Notes under the pieces: generated by a model
The model's database searches: none
Told to the model about the DNA's origin: nothing
Seen by the model: only the letters and a program-made list of their open reading frames with translations
Made by a program: the position numbers and the translations under genes
In this document: positions 6,710 to 28,505 of the stretch, piece by piece
How positions within the stretch are numbered: position 1 is the first letter of the stretch
Layout of the letters: every line of letters begins with the position of its first letter
Virus record (IMG/VR): IMGVR_UViG_3300030060_007496
Span: 1-28,505 of that record
DNA: 28,505 nucleotides
From: a virus
Strand: one strand, 5' to 3'

Positions 6710-7239
6710 GATACATTTAAAATATATTGTGCTGTAATTTTTGTTGACGAGGTTACGTAATAAACTAATAAATCAGATGCACTTGCTGTCGTTGTATTAC
6801 TCGGTGCAGTACCTCCTGTGAAATCCCAATAACTACCAAAAGTTAATGCTCTTCCTCCTGTTCCATCTTGAGTAATAACGATCGCACCCGATTGACCAAC
6901 CGTTATGTTTGTTGGGTTCGCGAGTGTTCGAGATCCACCTAAAGTTACGCTGAAATTATTACTAGCAGCAAAATCAGGAGTAATCGTTGCTCCATCTGTA
7001 AGTGCAGTGATAGATCCACGCTGTGCTGCAGTGAACGTTTGAGCAGCATCTAATACAGCATTAGAAGCAGGCAAGCTGGCTTGTGTACTAACTAATGCTG
7101 AGCCTTCTTTGACATACAGTTTATCTTGGTCCGTTGCATAGCAGATTTCACCTTCTTGGATATCAGCTACAGATCCATTTAAGTTTGCATATGTACCTCG
7201 TGCAATCCGCAGAGGAGTTCTAGTAGATGGTGTTGGCAT
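6706..7239 (-). CDS. Fibre-associated structural protein (177 aa)
   Basis: The N-terminal part (LRIARGTYANLNGSVADIQE, then GEICYATDQDKLYVKEG) is the classic opening of phage tail-fibre proteins, in which a short beta motif attaches the fibre. Residues about 68-177 (TALTDGATITPDFAASNN, then QSGAIVITQDGTGGRALTF) are a module shared with the C-terminal half of the 239-aa protein at 1452-2171. The start overlaps the stop of the 914-aa fibre as TAATG, with GGAGG about 12 nt upstream inside that gene. Its own stop overlaps the start of the 1394-aa fibre as ATGA. The three genes are therefore one coupled set, and the likely role is an adaptor or short fibre. Confidence 0.85.
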   Translation of the reverse strand: MPTPSTRTPLRIARGTYANLNGSVADIQEGEICYATDQDKLYVKEGSALVSTQASLPASNAVLDAAQTFTAAQRGSITALTDGATITPDFAASNNFSVTLGGSRTLANPTNITVGQSGAIVITQDGTGGRALTFGSYWDFTGGTAPSNTTTASASDLLVYYVTSSTKITAQYILNVS

Positions 7240-9983
7240 TAGTTGAAAGATCCTCCATCGTAAGAAGTTGTTGTACTAACAAGTGAACTGCCGTTATCAA
7301 AATTGCCACCATCGGCAATTATTACTTGATTCATGGTTGACCAACTTGTAACACCGCTGCCATTAGTGGCAAGAAACTGCCCGTTAGTACCTGTATTATT
7401 CGGAAGTGTCAGCGTATAAGTGGCTGCTGCACTATGGGGTGGTCCTTTAATTTTAACACCATGAGTGTTATTTTCACAGTTAAGTAGTAGTGTTCCAGAG
7501 CCCCTTGTTGCATTACCTTTGAATTCAACTACACCACTTCCATTAGGATCAAATTTGATGTTTTGATTCCCTACTGTGATTACACTTCCTGAGCTATCCC
7601 AATTGGGGCCACCTGTACTCAAATAATCTGGAGTTAATGAACCTGCAGGAATTCCACCATTCCAACTTGGGTTCATTTCTACCCATTGACTGGAATCAGT
7701 ATCTTGGTAATAAACATAAGCACGTCCTTCATCACTATCAAACCAAGCATCACCAACATCTGGATTTGAAGGTGGTGACTGACTAATACTTGTACTACTA
7801 CCTGCATCTACATTTGTTAGGAGAGAGCCATCTCCTGCAAATGATGTTGATGTTAATTTACCTGTACTGGGATTGTAAGTAAGCCCAGTATCAGTTTCGG
7901 CTCCTTGATTTCCTGTGGCTCCGTCTACAAAAACCGGGTAAACAGTTTCATCGCTTGTATTATTAGCAGTTACATTAATGTTGGTTGCATTAGTAGCTGT
8001 ACCTGAAAGATTACCAGCAAAATTAAGTGATGTCAGTATTCCTGAGTTAGGATTATATGTAAGAGAGACATCGGATTCAATTCCTTGAGATCCAGTTGTT
8101 CCATCGGCAAATAGTAAATATACAGTTTCATCTGTAGCATTGTTTGCCGTTACATTAACGTTTGTTGAAATATTTGCAGTGCCATTAAGGTTGCCAGCAA
8201 AAGTAGTTGTGGTTAAAGTTGCTAGGCTCGGATTATAGGTTAATGAAGTATCAGCTTCTGGTCCTTGAATTCCACTGCTACCATTCGAAAATAGTACATG
8301 ATATGCATCGTCTGTAGAAGTATTTTGTGTTACGGTTATATTTGTTGAGGTGTTTGCAGTACCTGTAAGATTACCTGCAAAAGAACCGGCAGTAAGAATA
8401 TTTGTGCTTGGATTATAAGTAAGAGATACATCAGATTCTGCTCCCTGACTTCCGCTAGGTCCATCAGCAAACAACAAATATACAGTTTCGTTCGTTGCGT
8501 TGTTTGGCGTAATATTTATATTAGTTGCCAGATCCGCAGTGCCTGAAATGTTTCCTGAGAAAGTTCCTGCAGTCAGAATTCCAGTACTTGGGTTATAAGT
8601 AAGGGATACATCAGATTCAACACCTTGACTTCCTGTAGTTCCGTCAGCGAATAATAAGTAAACAGTTTCATCAGTTGAGTTATTAGCAACAACGTTTACA
8701 TTAGTAGCAATTGAAGCAGTACTAGCAGTACCTGTTAAGTTACCAGTGACATTACCAGTAACATTTCCTGTAAGATCTCCAGTTACATCACCGGCAAACT
8801 GTACAGATGTTAATAACCCAGTACTGGGGTTATAGAATAAACCTGTATCTGTTTCTGCTCCTTGTGCTCCTGTAGCTCCATCTACAAAGACTGGATATAC
8901 GGTTTCATTGTTAGTGTTGTTGCCGGTAACGCTGAATGTAGTTGCAAGGGTTGCAGTGTCTGCATTACCAGTAACGTTACCAGTAATATTTCCAGTGATG
9001 TTTCCTGTGACGTTACCTGTTAAGTTTGCTGATACTGATGTTAATGAAAGATTTCCTGTACTGGGGTTATAGTAAAAACCTGAATCGGTTTCAGCACCTT
9101 GTGAGCCAGTAGCTCCGTCAACAAATACTGGATATACAGTCTCATTTGTTGTGTTATTTGCTGTAACTGTAACTTCAGTTGCTAAATCGGAAGTACCTGT
9201 GACATCTCCAGTGACGTTACCTGTAAGATTACCGGTTACGTTTCCAGTTACATTACCAGTCACATTGCCGGTTAAATTACCAGCAACGGTTGTGGTTGTA
9301 AGTACTCCAGTGCTCGGGTTGTAATTAAGTCCGGTATCTGTTTTAGCACCTTGTGATCCTGTCGCTCCCTGAGCAAATATGGGATATACAGTTGAGTTTG
9401 AACTGTTGTCTGCTGTTACTGTGAATTGAGAAGCAAGTGCTGCAGTTCCGGTTAGGTTGCCAGTTACATCTCCGGTTAAATCTCCAGTTACATCGCCAGT
9501 TATCGTTCCTGTAACAGTCAGGTTGCCGCCAACAGCAGCACTATTGCTGATTGTTGATGTGCTTCCACTGGTATCGAAATCAAGTGCTCTCCAGGAGGTT
9601 GTTCCGCTAGAGGTCTTACGAGCGTAGTTACCGTCTGTAGAAGGCTCTGTGATGCCTCCAATTGTTGAGGTCGTAGCAGCAGACAGGTTGAACGTCAGTG
9701 TTTGATTGGTTATCTGATCTAGCTCAAACGTTCCACCACCTGTAAGTCCTGTACCAGCTGTAAGAGTAATATCTCCTGTACCTACACCTGAACTATTTTT
9801 ACCAGCAATCTTGATAATGCCGTCGTTAGCAGGACCGGCTGTTGCATTATCAACTTTTAGAAATATAGAAGGATCACCATCGTTAAAGTTTACTGCTAAT
9901 TCACCAAACTCCATCTGTGTACTAGATGGAGCTTTTGCATCATTACCATTCAGTACACTACTTCTTTTTAATTGTAATTTCAT
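7239..9983 (-). CDS. Repeat-rich tail fibre (914 aa)
   Basis: The N-terminus (LKRSSVLNGNDAKAPSSTQM, then EFGELAVNFNDGDPSIFLK) is the usual attachment motif of cyanophage tail fibres. From about residue 155 to 710 it alternates ladders of the tetrapeptide TG(N/D)(V/L/I) with eight copies of a roughly 40-residue unit containing ETVYPVFVDGATGSQGAETD and YNPSTG.LT. Residues about 715-760 hold DVGDAWFDSDEGRAYVYY, and about 800-880 carry GSGTLLLNCENNTHGVKIKG, shared with the 239-aa protein. The composition, rich in Thr, Asn and Gly with few charges, suggests an elongated trimeric beta fibre. AGGAAAG precedes the ATG at 9983. Downstream, the 177-aa gene overlaps the stop (TAATG). Confidence 0.88.
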   Translation of the reverse strand: MKLQLKRSSVLNGNDAKAPSSTQMEFGELAVNFNDGDPSIFLKVDNATAGPANDGIIKIAGKNSSGVGTGDITLTAGTGLTGGGTFELDQITNQTLTFNLSAATTSTIGGITEPSTDGNYARKTSSGTTSWRALDFDTSGSTSTISNSAAVGGNLTVTGTITGDVTGDLTGDVTGNLTGTAALASQFTVTADNSSNSTVYPIFAQGATGSQGAKTDTGLNYNPSTGVLTTTTVAGNLTGNVTGNVTGNVTGNLTGNVTGDVTGTSDLATEVTVTANNTTNETVYPVFVDGATGSQGAETDSGFYYNPSTGNLSLTSVSANLTGNVTGNITGNITGNVTGNADTATLATTFSVTGNNTNNETVYPVFVDGATGAQGAETDTGLFYNPSTGLLTSVQFAGDVTGDLTGNVTGNVTGNLTGTASTASIATNVNVVANNSTDETVYLLFADGTTGSQGVESDVSLTYNPSTGILTAGTFSGNISGTADLATNINITPNNATNETVYLLFADGPSGSQGAESDVSLTYNPSTNILTAGSFAGNLTGTANTSTNITVTQNTSTDDAYHVLFSNGSSGIQGPEADTSLTYNPSLATLTTTTFAGNLNGTANISTNVNVTANNATDETVYLLFADGTTGSQGIESDVSLTYNPNSGILTSLNFAGNLSGTATNATNINVTANNTSDETVYPVFVDGATGNQGAETDTGLTYNPSTGKLTSTSFAGDGSLLTNVDAGSSTSISQSPPSNPDVGDAWFDSDEGRAYVYYQDTDSSQWVEMNPSWNGGIPAGSLTPDYLSTGGPNWDSSGSVITVGNQNIKFDPNGSGVVEFKGNATRGSGTLLLNCENNTHGVKIKGPPHSAAATYTLTLPNNTGTNGQFLATNGSGVTSWSTMNQVIIADGGNFDNGSSLVSTTTSYDGGSFN
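7850..9510 (-). repeat. Eight-unit fibre repeat with 12-nt TGNV ladders
   Basis: Within the 914-aa fibre, eight roughly 40-residue units occur between about 7850 and 9430. They are separated by runs of a 12-nt unit encoding TGNV, TGDV or TGNL, especially near 8725-8795, 8965-9030, 9195-9285 and 9445-9510. The units are alike in protein but differ at many third codon positions. Bounds are approximate. Confidence 0.8.
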
Positions 9984-16770: not shown

Positions 16771-17136
16771 ATGGAATTCATAGATAGCAATGAATGGGTG
16801 CCTGTACATACATTATCAGGATACGAATGCTGTATTGAGTACTATGTCAGCAAGCACGGGTTTGTCAAAAGTACTAAAGGCCAAATAGAAAAAGTACTGA
16901 AGCCACGTATTAATAAGAATGGATATGCTCAGGTAAATTTAACTCAACGCATTGGAAGACGCAAAACAATTACCGCAAATGTACATAAATTAGTTGCATT
17001 AGCTTTTCTAGAATCTCCAGTTGCAATGCCTGGCAGAGGTAAAGGCTGCAGTCGTATTCTTCATATTGATGGCATCAAACATAATAATTCAGTTTCAAAC
17101 TTAAGATGGACTAAAATAAAGGAAACTGTTTCGTGA
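16771..17136 (+). CDS. Free-standing HNH homing endonuclease with NUMOD4-like domain (121 aa)
   Basis: Residues about 8-55 match the NUMOD4-type layout: EWVPVHTLSGYECC with YYVSKHGFVKST and LKPRINKNGYAQVNL. This is followed by an HNH unit with VHKLVALAFL (His72), LHIDGIKHNN (His98, Asn105/Asn106) and NLRWTK. These are the usual catalytic and metal-binding positions, so the enzyme looks intact. Family members cut DNA near their own insertion point to spread. It is oriented against its neighbours and sits immediately upstream of the capsid gene, a common site for such invaders. No intron or intein is seen, so it is free-standing. There is no clear Shine-Dalgarno before the ATG. It overlaps the next gene by four bases (GTGA). 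Confidence 0.88.
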   Translation: MEFIDSNEWVPVHTLSGYECCIEYYVSKHGFVKSTKGQIEKVLKPRINKNGYAQVNLTQRIGRRKTITANVHKLVALAFLESPVAMPGRGKGCSRILHIDGIKHNNSVSNLRWTKIKETVS

Positions 17137-17822
17137 AATCAATGTCTGATAGTTTAGTGCTTAAAGGTGTAAAGGGTATTCAAAAGCATACTGGTACTGA
17201 AATGCAATTAGCATTTTGCAAAAGAGGTGGCGACACCCATATGCTTAAGCGTTGGTGGACTAACAGCCCAAAAAATATTGTCTATACCGCCTGTACTGTT
17301 TTTAATGTAAGTGGACCTGACGGTACTGTTAAACTTGCTATCGAATCTAGGAGTGATAGTCAGATTAAAATTGATTACGACGGTAATTATAATTTCACTT
17401 TTAGTGGAATAAACCGAGTAACTAATGCAGCTCTGTTTACATCAGACTTTAAACTTATTGAGTACTATCAAATTAGTTCTGGAGTAGGTGTAGCTCCTAC
17501 AGTGGTTCCTGGAGAAATTGCACGACCTACCTATATTGGTGAGCTTTCGGTTTCTGGTGGTCCTGACGAATTAAATGTAAATACTAATTCTGGAAATATT
17601 GAAGTTTCCCTTTCTGGAAATGCTAATGCAGTAACTTATGCTTGGAGTAAAGTAAGTGGACCTGGACAAACAACGTTTACTGCCGCTAATCAAGCGAAGA
17701 CAAAAGTCAAGTTTAATGAGGAAGGTACTTATACAATTAAATGTACTGTTGCATCTTCAGATTCAGGCTTGACTGATAGTTCACCCAAGTCTGTAAATGT
17801 TTCTGGTATTGTTGTTTCTTAA
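17133..17822 (+). CDS. Ig/PKD-like domain protein on opposite strand (229 aa)
   Basis: The start is a GTG overlapping the TGA of the HNH gene, with AAGGA 9 nt upstream; an ATG three codons later is less well placed. The C-terminal part (residues about 135-229) looks like an Ig- or PKD-type beta sandwich: NIEVSLSGNANAVTYAWSKV, then SGPGQTTF and FNEEGTYTIKCTVASSDSG. The N-terminal part (about 1-130) is also beta-rich (TVKLAIESRSDSQIKIDYDG) and not recognised. Such domains decorate phage capsids and tails and bind surface sugars weakly, so an outer head or fibre decoration is likely. Read opposite to the virion genes and joined to the HNH gene, it may have arrived with it. Its stop overlaps the stop of the convergent 237-aa gene. 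Confidence 0.8.
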   Translation: MKSMSDSLVLKGVKGIQKHTGTEMQLAFCKRGGDTHMLKRWWTNSPKNIVYTACTVFNVSGPDGTVKLAIESRSDSQIKIDYDGNYNFTFSGINRVTNAALFTSDFKLIEYYQISSGVGVAPTVVPGEIARPTYIGELSVSGGPDELNVNTNSGNIEVSLSGNANAVTYAWSKVSGPGQTTFTAANQAKTKVKFNEEGTYTIKCTVASSDSGLTDSSPKSVNVSGIVVS

Positions 17823-18560: not shown

Positions 18561-19502
18561 CTACAGATACTCTGCGATCTGATTGCTCGAAGCTCTTAAC
18601 GACTTAAGTGCCTTATGCTCAAGCGTCCTTACGCGGTCTCTGCTCATATTTAGTATCTGCCCTATTGCTGTCATAGACATAGGTTCAAGGATGTCATTAC
18701 CTATTCCATATCGCATACTAATAACTGCCGCTTGCATTTCAGGCAGGTCATAGATTAAATCTTTTATATCTTCTTTGATGCACTTTTTTTCAAGTAGCAT
18801 GCTTGGCAACTGGCTCTCGTCTTCAAGCAGATCGATTAATGCTGTATCCCTATTCTCGCCAATCTTTATTTCAAGGGATGTAGGCTGACGTGCTTTACAC
18901 ATTAAATCTTTAATCTCATCCACTGGCAAATTTAAATGATCAGACAGCTGAAATACAGTTGGCATTGAGCCATTGATTTGAGACAGTTCACGCTGAGCTT
19001 TTTTCAGTTTATTGAGATTTTCGGTGATGTGGATGGGCAAACGAATTGATCTACTTTTTTCCGCAATTGCTCTTGTGATCCCCTGGCGTATCCACCAATA
19101 AGCATATGTAGAAAATTTATAGCCACGACCTGGATCAAACTTTTCGACACCTCTAACTAAGCCAATAGTACCTTCCTGAATTATATCCAGTAGCTCCATG
19201 TTACGCTTGGTATATTTCTTTGCGACAGAGACAACAAGACGAAGATTAGCGGTAACCATCTTGTCTTTTGCTTTTTCGCCATCACGTATTTCCTTGCGTA
19301 ATTGCTTTTCTGAGATACCTAAAACTGCTGCCAGTGAATAGTTGTCTTGGATCCCTAAATCAATTTTACTCTGTTTAATATGCATGAGCCTTTGAACTTT
19401 ACGTCCTAAAAGGATCTCTTCGTCATGCTCTAGCAAAGGCACTCTTCCGATATCTCGTAGATATGCACGAACACTATCGCCTGAAACTTTTGATTGTGGC
19501 AT
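18561..19502 (-). CDS. Phage-encoded sigma-70 factor, cyanobacterial group 1/2 type (313 aa)
   Basis: All conserved sigma-70 parts except region 1.1 are present. Region 1.2 is at about 8-40 (DSVRAYLRDIGRVPLL), 2.1-2.2 at 80-122 (ANLRLVVSVAKKY, LDIIQEGTIGLVRGVEKFD) and the -10-binding 2.3-2.4 at 125-157 (GYKFSTYAYWWIRQGITRAI). Region 3 spans about 160-235, and 4.2 lies at 272-302 (MSMTAIGQILNMSRDRVRTL). The DSVRAYLRDIGR start and the length match cyanobacterial SigA/SigB-type factors, so acquisition from a host is likely. It should bind host RNA polymerase core and redirect it to phage promoters. It lies among virion genes, and TATAAATA elements in the window are candidate targets. No Shine-Dalgarno is seen; a small inverted repeat lies upstream at 19528-19546. 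Confidence 0.95.
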   Translation of the reverse strand: MPQSKVSGDSVRAYLRDIGRVPLLEHDEEILLGRKVQRLMHIKQSKIDLGIQDNYSLAAVLGISEKQLRKEIRDGEKAKDKMVTANLRLVVSVAKKYTKRNMELLDIIQEGTIGLVRGVEKFDPGRGYKFSTYAYWWIRQGITRAIAEKSRSIRLPIHITENLNKLKKAQRELSQINGSMPTVFQLSDHLNLPVDEIKDLMCKARQPTSLEIKIGENRDTALIDLLEDESQLPSMLLEKKCIKEDIKDLIYDLPEMQAAVISMRYGIGNDILEPMSMTAIGQILNMSRDRVRTLEHKALKSLRASSNQIAEYL

Positions 19503-23172: not shown

Positions 23173-24294
23173 CTAAGCAAACTCGTTAAGTAAATCCATT
23201 TTGTCACGTAATCCTTCAGGCTCACCTGGCATTTCAAATCCGCCACGGTACCTATAATTTTTAGGACTTCCATAGTTGGCAGCATCAAATTGTGTTGCTA
23301 AATCAAAGAAGTTCAATGGGGCTCTATCTGCTGCTTCACGTAATCCTTGATAATCAATGGGATTATATGCATTATCCGTAAACATATTAGTAACTTTGAT
23401 TCCGTAGTTCTCGCCTGAATACTCATCCATATTATCTTCCATATTGTCTATATATTGCTGACCTAAACCTAAACCACTTTCATATCCTGTGCCAGATCCT
23501 CCACCCATCGGATTTATATACGTTCTTGATTTATCTATATTTGCACCTACATCTCCATAAGCATTACCTCCAATGACAATTTCTGTATCTCTAGCTTCCT
23601 GATTTCTTCCTACAGCTACTCCACCCGGTGCAGCGATAGCAGAGCCATCATCTAATTTATTGTTATTTATTTGACTTTGGACACCGTCTCCTATGTTTGC
23701 CATTCCATCATCACCTTGTACCACATCTATATTATTGACTTCATCAATGCCTGGCAAAGTTCCTGGTGGTCCAGGATTAGTGTTTTCTTTCTCTGCTTCC
23801 ATAATTGCAGTTTTCCACCTGTCTAAAAGATTTTCAGCATTGCTAGACATCTCAGCATCTGAACTCTCAGCAAAAGCAATGATTTTTTCTTTATCGTGGC
23901 CACCAATATTTTTTAAACCCTGAAGATCGCCTGTAGTTAATAACTCCCTTCCCCGTTGAGAACCTTTTCCATATTCAGCACCTGTATATCTATCGATATT
24001 TTTAAAAGGATTATTTTCATCTGTTATATCCCTTAAACGACCCTCATCATAATACTGACGACCTTCATCTTTTGCATTGCCCATAAATGATATTTCATTT
24101 CTTTCATCAAACCTACGCCGTACTTCTTTGGGTAAGTCTTTCATTCGATCTACACCTTTTCTGTCCATCAATTTCTTTCCTGCCATCCTCCTTTCTTTCC
24201 TATCCCTTTGGCCAAGGAACATATCCCTTGTATTGTTTTCCTTATAGCTTTTACTTTGCTGTTTATAATTTTTACCTTCCTGATATCTAGCCAT
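23173..24294 (-). CDS. Hypothetical basic/acidic protein between terminase and portal (373 aa)
   Basis: No family is recognised. Residues about 1-65 are strongly basic (QGKNY-like start, then RDRKERRMAGKKLMDRKG and KEVRRRFDERNE), suggesting nucleic-acid contact. The middle (about 180-285) is Gly/Asn/Asp-rich and probably disordered (AIAAPGGVAVGRNQEARD, MGGGSGTGYESGLGLGQQYI). The C-terminus contains APLNFFDLATQFDAANYG. It follows the large terminase after 7 nt with no own ribosome-binding site in the gap and precedes the portal by 34 nt, so it belongs to the packaging/portal transcript. A head-assembly or packaging accessory role is inferred from the position. Confidence 0.8.
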   Translation of the reverse strand: MARYQEGKNYKQQSKSYKENNTRDMFLGQRDRKERRMAGKKLMDRKGVDRMKDLPKEVRRRFDERNEISFMGNAKDEGRQYYDEGRLRDITDENNPFKNIDRYTGAEYGKGSQRGRELLTTGDLQGLKNIGGHDKEKIIAFAESSDAEMSSNAENLLDRWKTAIMEAEKENTNPGPPGTLPGIDEVNNIDVVQGDDGMANIGDGVQSQINNNKLDDGSAIAAPGGVAVGRNQEARDTEIVIGGNAYGDVGANIDKSRTYINPMGGGSGTGYESGLGLGQQYIDNMEDNMDEYSGENYGIKVTNMFTDNAYNPIDYQGLREAADRAPLNFFDLATQFDAANYGSPKNYRYRGGFEMPGEPEGLRDKMDLLNEFA

Positions 24295-24301
24295 GGTAAA
24301 T

Positions 24302-25840
24302 CTATAAATCTAAACTATCCTTATTGTACTCTAACTGTAAATGCCCTCTTCTTAAAAGTCCTCCAATAGTTAATACCATTGAATCAACAGCATCATCATG
24401 TGCAGAATGTCCAAAGTTAAGAAGCTCTTCTTCTAGTACAGTCCACTTACGGTATTTATTCCATATAATCTTCTTCCTTTCGAATAGTCCAAGCACGCCA
24501 CGCAGTCTCGCTAATTTATCACCCTTGAATCCTTTAACAGGTGAACATGTCAGGTTATATAAAGCACGCTCGTCAAACATAATTCGTTTAAAGTCTCCTT
24601 CAAATGATGTCTGGTATGAGATTGCTTCAGGCCATATAATGCATGGCGACATTGTTGGGAAATATTGTTCGTCCTCATTTTCAAGTAATATGTTCCAATC
24701 AGCAAGCATCGAACATAAGCAGTCCATTTTTTCAATATTGCCCATTGCTCTTACTCTGCGTTGATCTATTAAATAAATCTTTCCCTCCTTGATCCCGCCT
24801 AAGGTAAATACAGTCCAATCGTTCTTCTCACTCAATCCTGAACTAAGATCTATTCCCACACCAAGGCAGTCATAATCATCTGGTACCTCTGCTCTAACGA
24901 TTAAATCAGGTGAGATTCCAACTTCTGATGACTGAACAGCTGTATTGAGATACTGATATGCAAAGGCCACCCGATCTTCTGTTTTCCGTTCGTTTAGATA
25001 TTTCATTGACCAGAACTCTGGCCAGTATGATCTTTGCCTTCCGTCAGCGTCTGTTATGACTGCTTTTTGGATAATCTGTTTCCAGTTATTCTTTGGTATA
25101 AAAAGAGAGGCGTGGACATCGTCGTAGTGAAAGCGCGTTCCCAGACAGATTGCCCGTGCACCTTGGAACATCGTAGGAGCGATAACGTTACTCCATGTCT
25201 GTTCCATTTCACGGCGAATATCAGGATTGTTGATTGATGCAGCGGATTTAATAGGGTCATCAATAAGCACGAGCTGGGAGCGCTTCGAGGTAATAGCTCC
25301 TTTGAGACCACCACACGCAATGGTGAAAGCTTCTTCACCCGCTGTATCAATACCCGCAAATTCATAGTCGATACTCCAGTACTCATCTGATCGTTTAATT
25401 TTGGAAAGCCGTACCATTGGAAATATTTCCCGATACTTGGCACTTGTAAGAATCCCTTTGATGGTTGCAGACTTTGCTCTACTGATATCGACCATGTAAG
25501 CGATGTACAGAATACGCAGCATCTGCTTGGCTGCTGTATGCCTGCCGATCATCCAAGCAGCGAATAAACCCAGTACTGTGCTCTTTGCTGACCCTCGTGG
25601 GGCAAGTATGTCTGTGTTAGGCCCACCAATCCCAAGTAAGCATTCACTATCTACTCCAGTGCAAAGCTCTTTATGCCACTCGTGCATATGCTTTGCTGGA
25701 GGTTTACCTAATAGAGTACAAAAATCTTGAAAGTTATCTCTTGCTCTAAGGATAGATTCATCAGGAGGTTTGACAGTTACCTTTGTAGCTGTCATCAATG
25801 CTGATCTTCTGTACGCTAAAGCGATACTCGGAACTGCCAT
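24302..25840 (-). CDS. terL: Large terminase subunit (512 aa)
   Basis: The ATP-driven motor that packages and cuts phage DNA. The ATPase part has a Walker A variant LAPRGSAKST (79-88), Walker B LVLIDD (190-195) and coupling motif CLGTRFH (232-238). The nuclease part has GIDLSSG (Asp331), WPEAIS (Glu405) and a final acidic pair in HDDAVDS (Asp482, Asp483). All the expected acidic residues are present, so the enzyme looks active. Length fits the family. The ATG at 25840 lacks a clear Shine-Dalgarno. It follows the 178-aa candidate small terminase by 28 nt. Confidence 0.96.
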   Translation of the reverse strand: MAVPSIALAYRRSALMTATKVTVKPPDESILRARDNFQDFCTLLGKPPAKHMHEWHKELCTGVDSECLLGIGGPNTDILAPRGSAKSTVLGLFAAWMIGRHTAAKQMLRILYIAYMVDISRAKSATIKGILTSAKYREIFPMVRLSKIKRSDEYWSIDYEFAGIDTAGEEAFTIACGGLKGAITSKRSQLVLIDDPIKSAASINNPDIRREMEQTWSNVIAPTMFQGARAICLGTRFHYDDVHASLFIPKNNWKQIIQKAVITDADGRQRSYWPEFWSMKYLNERKTEDRVAFAYQYLNTAVQSSEVGISPDLIVRAEVPDDYDCLGVGIDLSSGLSEKNDWTVFTLGGIKEGKIYLIDQRRVRAMGNIEKMDCLCSMLADWNILLENEDEQYFPTMSPCIIWPEAISYQTSFEGDFKRIMFDERALYNLTCSPVKGFKGDKLARLRGVLGLFERKKIIWNKYRKWTVLEEELLNFGHSAHDDAVDSMVLTIGGLLRRGHLQLEYNKDSLDL

Positions 25841-25868: not shown

Positions 25869-26405
25869 TTAAGAGTTCCCAATTTCACTATAAATTTTAG
25901 CCCATACAGCATTCATTGCATTATCAATAGGTTCAGCAAACTGTGGATCATCTTTGAAGATAGCAGTCATCTCTCTCATAACTCTGTCAGCACCTGCAAG
26001 AATTAAACCTCGTTTATCTGTGGTTTTATTCATACGTTCACTTGCTTCAATATGAGAGCGTAGTTCTTTCTCTAGTGCTGCTAAACGTCCAGCACCTAAA
26101 TCACCTTTTACTTCTCCAGCAGTAATTGCCATACGTAAGTCTTGTACATCTGCATGAAGTGCTGCAATTTCACTATTCAAGATTTCACGTCGGTTGAGCT
26201 TTTTGAACTTCATTTTCACCCAACGTGATAAGTCGTTAAATGTTCCGCCATATCCAAGGATTCCTGAGTACACCCAAATCTCAATGATCGAAGGAGTTAT
26301 CTCAGCAAACTCTCTGAAGTCTTCTGCATCTGCTGCAGGTAATGTATCTAACCATTGATCTACTAGAGTTAGATAAAGTTTTTCTGATTTAGTAGATGTT
26401 GTCAT
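25869..26405 (-). CDS. Candidate small terminase subunit (178 aa)
   Basis: It lies directly upstream of the large terminase, where the small, DNA-recognising subunit normally sits. The N-terminal part (about 28-70) has a possible helix-turn-helix pattern (FAEITPSIIEIWVYSGILGY then GTFNDLSRWVKMKF), followed by a long helical, coiled-coil-like stretch (LNSEIAALHADVQDLRMAIT, RLAALEKELRSHIEASERMN) that would form the oligomerisation ring. Length suits the family. No motif is diagnostic, so the call rests on order and architecture. Its start overlaps the stop of the 525-aa gene as TAATG, implying coupling. Confidence 0.6.
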   Translation of the reverse strand: MTTSTKSEKLYLTLVDQWLDTLPAADAEDFREFAEITPSIIEIWVYSGILGYGGTFNDLSRWVKMKFKKLNRREILNSEIAALHADVQDLRMAITAGEVKGDLGAGRLAALEKELRSHIEASERMNKTTDKRGLILAGADRVMREMTAIFKDDPQFAEPIDNAMNAVWAKIYSEIGNS

Positions 26406-27982
26406 TAGAATGCGCTTGCTGCCTTAGCCATCATTCTAGATTTATCAGCGCGGGTTCTTGCAGCCAATCTATTTGCAAAATCAGCTTCTTTCATCCTTAA
26501 GTCACTAGCAGTAGTCATCTTCCTTTCTTCAAGGCCTAAACCATAAGAAGCTTCATCCTTTCTAAGTCCACTGCCAAAAGCTGCGGTATCCTTACCTAAT
26601 GCTTGTGAAAAAGCAGCTGAATCTTTACCTAATCCTTGTTGGAAACTGGCCTCATCTTTTTTGATTTTACTTCCAAATGCAGCTGTATCTTTGCCTAGTG
26701 CCTGTGCAAATGCAGATTCATCTTTTCTGATTCCACTTCCAAATGCAGCTGTGTCTTTTGCTAACCGTTGTCCATAAGCTGCTTCATCTTTCCGGATTTG
26801 ACTACCGTATCCAGCTGTATCTTTCCCCAATGCTTGAGCAAAGGCAGCTTCGTCTTTACGCCCCGCTCTTTCAAAAGCACTTGAATCTTTGGATAACCCT
26901 TGCTCGTATGCGGCTTCATCTTTTCTAATACCACTACCAAATGCCTGTGCTCTCTCACCTAATGCTTGTTGAAAGGTAGCTGAGTCCTTAGCTAGTCCCT
27001 GCTGAAAAGCTGCGGTATCTTTGCCCAATGATTGTTGGAAAGCAGCACTGTCCTTGGCTAACCCTTGTTGAAAGGCTAAATTACCCTGACCTATTTGTTG
27101 TTGAAATGTTGCTGTATCCTTACCTAATGTTTGTTGGAATTGCGCTTTATCTTTCTCAAGTTGAGATTGATATCCAGCTGAATCCTTAGCAAGTGCCTGA
27201 GTAAATGCTGCACTATCTTTTTGAAGTGCTTGTGCAAAATTCTGTTCGTCTTTTTTAATACCGCTCATATAAGCAGTCTCATCCTTCTTGATGCCACTCA
27301 TATAAGAGGCGCTACCTTTCTGCAACTGCGCTGCTAATACCGCTTGCTGTTGCTTCTCAATGTTTGATTGTGCTTGAGTAAGCCGATTTTGTTCTCCAGT
27401 TTCTTTCGTAGCTAATCTATTTTCAAACCCAGCAACTGCTGTACTTTTTCTATCCTGATCTCCACGCACCTGCATGAGCGCAGTTTGTATGTCCTTATCA
27501 AATCCCATCTTGCCAACTTGACGGTTGTACTCATCTTGAGCAAACCGACTCTGCAGACTAAACTCTGCTCCCATTACATTTAATTTTTTAGCCTCTTCAA
27601 CATCCATCAGAGCTGCCTGGTTCGACAGTTCAAGGGCAGCAGCCTGATTCATCATCATTGACTGAAGACCAGCATTTGTTGCTGCTAACCCTTTGGCAAT
27701 ATTTGAATCTTGATATCCCTGAAGGGTATTCATCATATATGTTCCCTTCATCATCTTGCCCCAATCGCTTGTGGGCTTCCATGTATTGAACGCTGTATTC
27801 ATATCAGCGAAACCAAGCGCTCCTTGCGCCATCAAAGCAGGATCGACCACTCCTACTTTTTTACTGTTGGGATCATTATCTACGCCCCTGCCTTTATTTG
27901 CGGCGTCTACTCTTGCCTGACTACTCCCGCCACGTGGTGTCTGAATAACTTTTCCTTGAGCATCTCTATCTTGACTAGCCAT
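26405..27982 (-). CDS. Hendecad-repeat helical protein (525 aa)
   Basis: Residues 222-507 are 26 tandem 11-residue units; the first 24 are clear (to 485), with consensus K-D-x-A-A-F-x-Q-x-L-G and recurring forms such as KDTAAFGSGIR and KDEAAFAQALG. Eleven-residue periods make straight, right-handed or amphipathic helices, as in some coiled coils and LEA or apolipoprotein-type proteins. Residues 1-221 hold a Gly/Asp-rich start and helical Gln/Met-rich sequence (NTWKPTSDWGKMMKGTYMMN). The C-terminus is basic. It precedes the candidate small terminase with a TAATG overlap. Possible roles are an internal virion or ejection protein, tail-length ruler or membrane-binding helix; none is proven. A promoter-like TATAAT lies about 33 nt upstream. 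No clear Shine-Dalgarno. Confidence 0.85.
   Translation of the reverse strand: MASQDRDAQGKVIQTPRGGSSQARVDAANKGRGVDNDPNSKKVGVVDPALMAQGALGFADMNTAFNTWKPTSDWGKMMKGTYMMNTLQGYQDSNIAKGLAATNAGLQSMMMNQAAALELSNQAALMDVEEAKKLNVMGAEFSLQSRFAQDEYNRQVGKMGFDKDIQTALMQVRGDQDRKSTAVAGFENRLATKETGEQNRLTQAQSNIEKQQQAVLAAQLQKGSASYMSGIKKDETAYMSGIKKDEQNFAQALQKDSAAFTQALAKDSAGYQSQLEKDKAQFQQTLGKDTATFQQQIGQGNLAFQQGLAKDSAAFQQSLGKDTAAFQQGLAKDSATFQQALGERAQAFGSGIRKDEAAYEQGLSKDSSAFERAGRKDEAAFAQALGKDTAGYGSQIRKDEAAYGQRLAKDTAAFGSGIRKDESAFAQALGKDTAAFGSKIKKDEASFQQGLGKDSAAFSQALGKDTAAFGSGLRKDEASYGLGLEERKMTTASDLRMKEADFANRLAARTRADKSRMMAKAASAF
26462..27319 (-). repeat. 33-nt period tandem repeat (11-residue units)
   Basis: 26 consecutive units encode the hendecads of the 525-aa protein. 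Neighbouring units often have the same residues but different third codon bases, for instance in the codons for KDTAAF, so the array is old and kept by selection on the protein and not by recent slippage. Confidence 0.9.
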
Positions 27983-28014
27983 ATTAAATCAAGCCGTAAT
28001 ACTAATCTTTTTCA

Positions 28015-28043
28015 ATTATAACTTCGACAAAGTACAATATAAA
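28015..28043 (-). promoter_or_regulatory. Candidate sigma-70-type promoter for leftward unit
   Basis: On the minus strand TATAAT (28015-28020) lies 17 bp from TTTATA (28038-28043), a four-of-six match to the -35 consensus. The predicted start of transcription falls about 25 nt before the ATG at 27982. The -35 overlaps the rightward TATAAATA element. Confidence 0.4.
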
Positions 28044-28045
28044 TA
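28038..28045 (+). promoter_or_regulatory. TATAAATA late-promoter-like element (rightward)
   Basis: Exact octamer on the plus strand, 17 nt before the ATG at 28063. As at 20328-20335, the distance implies a very short leader. It is the only copy found in the rightward direction and lies before the only gene that opens rightward at the right edge. Confidence 0.5.
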
Positions 28046-28062
28046 TCTAGTGCTGATTAATA

Positions 28063-28505
28063 ATGGTTGCTTTTAGATCTCCAGGTGCTGTAAATACTGG
28101 CGGCTTTATTAACGCTGCAGCTGCTGTAGGAGCTGATGCTGCAAGTTTTGCAGATACAACTTTTAAGGCTAGCCCCTCTTATGACACAATTTCAGCTTTA
28201 ACGGCAAGGGGGCAAGGAGTTACTGATAGAGCAAGCGTTAAGTACGCAGGTAGGCTTTTATCGGATCAACAACAAGAGAGGATGAATGCTCTGACTGTTC
28301 CTAGTATTCTGCAACGTGGTCAGCAGAAGATGGCAGGTGAACTTGCTGCAAGATCTCAAGGTTGGCTTGGACTAATTAATAAGAAAGATCCTGTAAAACC
28401 CTTCCAATATGATTTGAGTGAATTCGATAATCTTTTAAAGAGTCAAAAACAACAGATCGAAGAAGAGGCTCAAAGAATTTCTAGTCGTAAATATGTCCCA
28501 GTAGA
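28063..28505 (+). CDS. Ala-rich hypothetical protein, partial (3' end beyond window)
   Basis: The ATG at 28063 opens a frame that stays clear for 147 codons to the edge. The start reads MVAFRSPGAVNTGGFINAAA, then ALTARGQGVTDRASVKYAGR and AARSQGWLGLINKK, with a helical, Glu/Gln-rich stretch at the end (KSQKQQIEEEAQRIS). It resembles the Ala/Gln-rich virion-associated proteins in this window in style, but no family is recognised. It is divergent from the 525-aa gene, with an 80-nt gap holding the promoter-like elements above. No Shine-Dalgarno is evident. Confidence 0.75.
   Translation, partial: MVAFRSPGAVNTGGFINAAAAVGADAASFADTTFKASPSYDTISALTARGQGVTDRASVKYAGRLLSDQQQERMNALTVPSILQRGQQKMAGELAARSQGWLGLINKKDPVKPFQYDLSEFDNLLKSQKQQIEEEAQRISSRKYVPV

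Follow-up and report, generated by a model that had tools for sequence, protein, structure and literature searches.

The hendecad protein encoded by the ORF at 26405-27982 (-), named X here together with its family members in related phages, may be an internal ejection (pilot-type) protein that, with a divergently encoded hydrolase, builds a DNA conduit across the host envelope. We put the probability of this reading at about 50%. Its observed basis comprises predicted helical hendecads, length changes that preserve the helix phase, fixed synteny, a hydrolase-type neighbor with swapped domains, and a pilot-protein profile match in some relatives. X is not unique to the window (the whole stretch of DNA analyzed, 28,505 nucleotides) and is a member of a widespread, fast-changing family of cyanophage proteins. 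To our knowledge, S-EIV1-like phages are widespread marine cyanophages whose structural genes are almost without functional annotation. The window, a viral contig of 28.5 kb, encodes a terminase large subunit (TerL) 55% identical to that of Synechococcus phage S-EIV1, a phage placed in the marine cyanophage group G238, to which one survey ascribed approximately 3% of the cyanophage content (PMC5332604).

Table 1. Positions of gene X, its parts and its neighbors in the window.
Feature	Position	Strand	Remarks
Gene X, whole	26405..27982	(-)	525 aa from ATG; stop codon shares its final base with the following gene's ATG
X, conserved N-terminal helical domain (approximately residues 54-221)	27320..27823	(-)	HMM of non-KD relatives, 1e-30; helix in the model
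X, hendecad array, 24 units in phase (residues 222-485)	26528..27319	(-)	Consensus K-D-x-A-A-[FY]-x-[QS]-x-[LI]-x
X, two degenerate in-phase hendecads (residues 486-507)	26462..26527	(-)	Assigned by repeat phase
X, basic C-terminal end (residues 508-525)	26408..26461	(-)	Ends ..AKAASAF; relatives end ARSF/AGMF-like
178-aa conserved protein, TerS candidate by position	25869..26405	(-)	75-87% identical across relatives
Terminase large subunit	24302..25840	(-)	phrog_38, 2e-70; 55% identical to S-EIV1
Divergent gene, 5' part	28063..28505	(+)	Family N-terminal HMM, 1.6e-6; cut by the window end before the catalytic part
Intergenic region separating X from the divergent hydrolase-type gene	27983..28062	.	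80 bp; approximately 50-90 bp in most relatives

The hendecad array

Window X carries 24 unbroken in-phase 11-mers of the KDSAAFQQGLA type followed by two degenerate ones, which gives 26 units and 286 residues and confirms the 24-26 tandem units counted in an earlier note made from the sequence alone. That note had located the array with the coordinates of the correct ORF, but these span the whole ORF, of which the array is only a part (Table 1). Over the 24 units, the preferred residues were K at position 1 (22/24), D at position 2 (21/24), A at positions 4 (18/24) and 5 (15/24), F or Y at position 6 (24/24), Q or S at position 8 (22/24), and L or I at position 10 (23/24), and the protein is rich in K, R, Q, and N. 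Identity at lag 11 was 16.5 SD above shuffled sequences, with lags 22 and 33 also high. The Fourier spectrum of hydrophobicity peaked at 98.2 degrees per residue, the angle of an 11/3 helix, with an amplitude of 0.276, compared with only 0.017 at the heptad angle. Between units, the third codon position was the most diverse, and approximately half of the unit pairs sharing a residue used different codons (693 of 1,359). Mean pS and pN were 0.75 and 0.40 between units, and 0.42 and 0.064 between the array and that of its nearest relative (L003). Codon counts and pS/pN thus bear out the suggestion that varied third positions with constant residues reflect selection on the protein. Because of the periodicity, the codon variation, and the excess of pS over pN, we conclude that the array is real and constrained at the protein level.

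Predicted structure

A monomer prediction with AlphaFold, an approach the earlier note had proposed, rendered window X as almost all helix (residues 73-227, 235-385, 389-469, and 485-524; mean pLDDT 68.6, pTM 0.21). For a relative with GAQG-type repeats (L056), the model was a single helix from residue 41 to 382 with pLDDT up to 93. The two models support helical rods for the X variants, although they carry no quaternary structure, and with the 98.2-degree periodicity they back the proposed helical rod. The further proposal of a continuous helix of about 40 nm held in part only, since the mostly helical model breaks at approximately residues 228-234, 386-388, and 470-484. The hydrophobic residues would lie in a narrow stripe, surrounded by small and amide residues, rather than on a wide lipid-binding face, and hydropathy indicated no transmembrane segment in the one relative examined. 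A Foldseek search of viral models with the L056 model returned no significant match, as expected for a low-pTM rod.

Distribution and evolution of the X family

We gathered 80 loci through TerL relatives. In approximately 50 marine S-EIV1-like cyanophage contigs, a member of the X family directly precedes a TerS-like gene and terL, the order being X, then the 178-aa protein, in most loci a small ORF, and finally terL; the window follows this order, and the position upstream of the terminase genes reported earlier is therefore correct. The end of X overlaps the first start base of the next gene by 1 bp (TAATG-type) in 47 of 50 loci. Repeats come in several flavors (KDSAAFQQALG, DVDISKIGAQG, ASKYGADRS), but since an HMM built from the N-terminal domain of relatives with other repeat types matches window X at 1e-30, these sequences indicate that X is one family. 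The strongest period was 11, 22, 33, or 44 in 40 of 47 distinct X proteins.

X ranges six-fold in length, from 177 to 1160 aa, and has a median pairwise identity of 36%, where the 178-aa protein reaches 83% and TerL 88%. The window and L003 have identical TerS-like proteins and 99% identical TerL, and their X proteins are separated by one 22-residue insertion and one 22-residue deletion. Other pairs with TerL 98.6-99.6% identical differ in X by 11, 99, 176, or 275 residues, in each case a multiple of 11, lengths to be read with the caveat that short-read assembly may collapse repeats, a concern lessened by the divergence of the units at the DNA level. Between less similar phages, some length differences were not multiples of 11. 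X lengths differ even between near-identical phages.

Whole X alignments contained no conserved block of 7-10 columns. Neither window X nor a GAQG-type relative had a tblastn match among 50,697 phage records, phmmer against the PDB gave none, and a search for further KD-type relatives returned only the known contig. Scattered weak Pfam matches among X relatives, including AbiEi and PcrB, were treated as low-complexity chance.

Neighboring genes

Wherever sequence upstream of X is available (43 loci), a gene lies back to back with it. Members of this divergent family have a common N-terminus, and their C-terminus usually bears a peptidoglycan-hydrolase domain, of which at least five unrelated kinds occur among relatives. 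SLT_3/SLT, Hydrolase_2, Peptidase_M23, Glucosaminidase (4.5e-23), and Phage_lysozyme2 (4e-17 and 1.4e-18) each scored above the Pfam cutoff in one or more members, and some tested members had no hydrolase match above cutoff. The divergent gene was examined at loci L005, L007, L010, L011, L012, L043, L046, and L048. Peptidoglycan hydrolases are the kind of enzyme carried by phage entry machines. The 178-aa TerS-like protein had no PDB or Pfam match. In the putative ejection cluster upstream, family matches were limited to a Peptidase_S74 domain and some weak Gly-zippers; the former, an intramolecular-chaperone domain, is in a 226-aa protein (L095:11752-12432).

Elsewhere in the window, a phage sigma-70 factor with regions 1.2, 2, 3, and 4 is encoded between the portal-like and major capsid genes (18561-19502, -), and contigs G001, G003, and G005 have a sigma-70 gene at the same place. 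These three contigs also keep two opposite-strand genes (16771-17822, +) between the gene downstream of sigma and the major capsid gene. A 914-aa tail-fiber-like protein (7239-9983, -) contains 12-bp tandem repeats coding for (N/L)(V/L)TG units, and a 373-aa protein encoded between terL and the portal-like gene (23173-24294, -) varies strongly in length (404-526 aa in relatives).

Proposed role of X and alternatives

As an ejection protein, X would act through hendecad helices aligned laterally in a right-handed rod or barrel, presumably an oligomer with a lumen. From a presumed location in the virion, it would be ejected from the head before the DNA and, with the peptidoglycan hydrolase encoded back to back, would form a conduit through the host envelope by which DNA could pass. 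Repeats are gained or lost in whole 11-residue steps; the helix phase is therefore preserved while length and surface change fast, and such change plausibly fits differing host envelopes. Ejection proteins are variable in size and poorly conserved (PMC8954989), and the length range and 36% median identity of X would be typical of them, which supports the reading by analogy. Against this reading, fully extended X rods of 600-1160 aa would be longer than a periplasm; the scarcity of family matches in the upstream cluster, the negative hydropathy result for transmembrane segments in the one relative examined, and the failure of window X to match the pilot profile also count against it. Of the three roles listed in the earlier note, an internal ejection protein is the best option, considering the hydrolase-domain neighbor, the pilot-profile matches in relatives, and the ejection-like divergence, at the even odds given above.

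The same features also bear on other roles. A scaffolding protein, with long helices and a basic C-terminus that guide capsid assembly and with exit before or during packaging, would agree with the helical AlphaFold models, the conserved basic C-terminal end, and the location among packaging genes, and no other scaffold was identified within the window. We nevertheless consider it unlikely: X is upstream of terL and not between the portal and major capsid genes, and, among the nine contigs with a substantial match to the capsid protein, eight show 84-90% identity in it, against a six-fold spread in the length of X. The fixed place before the TerS-like gene, with its recurrent 1-bp overlap, and the abundance of K, R, Q, and N in X could instead denote a packaging or DNA-organizing partner of the terminase that coats or spools DNA or aids TerS. 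This is improbable in our opinion, as the TerS-like and TerL proteins are highly conserved whereas X is divergent, and such a role leaves the divergent hydrolase-type neighbor unexplained.

The other two roles in the earlier note fared less well. For a lipid-binding 11/3 amphipathic helix acting on host membranes in the style of apolipoproteins, LEA proteins, or perilipins, one may invoke the exact 98.2-degree periodicity and a Pfam apolipoprotein match (PF01442, E 5.6e-7). However, this match reached 29.9 bits, far under the curated gathering cutoff of 90, so that membership in PF01442 was rejected, and only 4 of 33 X members matched the family. Mean hydrophobicity is also near zero, and most variants have a narrow hydrophobic stripe and many G, Q, and D residues. 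We see little chance of a membrane-binding helix. A length ruler for tail or head would suit the tandem rod architecture, but differences in X of up to 275 residues occur between phages whose TerL is at least 99% identical; because lengths differ between such near-identical phages, a fixed-length ruler is disfavored and, in our estimation, very unlikely.

If the ejection reading is true, a rod that steps by exactly 11 residues beside a swappable cell-wall enzyme would constitute a natural experiment relating tube length and enzyme type to the host envelope.

Comparison with known systems

The earlier note knew of no standard phage family with this repeat. This is true for window X, which does not match phrog_5158, but sibling variants do match this microvirus pilot family: X relatives L031, L080, L052, and L073 gave E-values from 6e-4 to 1.8e-14, and two microvirus DNA pilot proteins matched at 5e-77 and 6e-72. 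The native repeat stretch of L080 matched the profile at 1.5e-16, compared with none of seven controls (three fully shuffled, four column-permuted). With the L080 repeats as a tblastn query, 75 records were found, almost all from microviruses (best 3e-4), with a pilot or VP2 annotation in nearly all the matches listed; a scrambled query recovered none of those microvirus records. These profile matches lie in the repeat region only and may reflect convergence. The pilot proteins' own matches take in the VP2 N-terminal region (MSNTAHQREV..LRAAGLNPVL), which is absent from window X and the relatives read. A profile search with the repeat unit, as the earlier note had envisaged, did not link the window to phiX174 H: its repeats' PSSM scored the H hendecads no better than shuffled or column-permuted controls, and for this reason we claim no direct relationship.

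The tube formed by the phiX174 pilot protein H is a decamer built from hendecad and heptad helices (PMC7354561). With H and gokushovirus VP2, X shares a hendecad helical rod and a polar composition rich in Q, N, R, and K, and several variants share the profile and tblastn matches; unlike them, X comes from a lineage of tailed dsDNA phages and is far more variable in length. The 11-residue helical repeats are also found in apolipoproteins A1, A4, and E. The ejection proteins of T7 (gp14, gp15, and gp16) and P22 are, like X, poorly conserved, size-variable, and helical, and X has a comparable context, since a peptidoglycan hydrolase and a group of putative internal proteins are encoded nearby. 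Neither sequence nor profile searches connected X with T7 gp14-16-type proteins. In contrast to T7 and P22, the hydrolase beside X has a divergent gene of its own in which domains are swapped, and X carries short tandem repeats in place of a globular fold.

In S-EIV1 itself (KJ410740), AHV82216 occupies the position of X directly before the P0002 homolog, and has one GAQERETIGKG-like 11-mer and a weak HMM match at its C-terminus (E 0.0019 at Z=1000); it differs from X in being only 82 aa long, without an array, and with a non-significant N-domain match. S-EIV1 has three tiny tandem ORFs (59, 53, and 82 aa) with similar N-termini at this place (L001:18385-18974), which are possibly reduced X-type proteins.

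By analogy, X would work like phiX174 H or T7 gp15. We say "works like" and claim membership of neither family because the KD-type repeats of the window do not match phrog_5158 and their PSSM is unlike H. More tentatively, and with odds that we consider rather against it, ocean-abundant tailed dsDNA phages could use a microvirus-style hendecad barrel of adjustable length as a conduit, together with a modular hydrolase whose fold is swapped between close relatives, the whole being tuned by 11-residue steps and domain exchange. If true, dsDNA phages and ssDNA microviruses would share, or would have separately reached, one helical design of DNA conduit.
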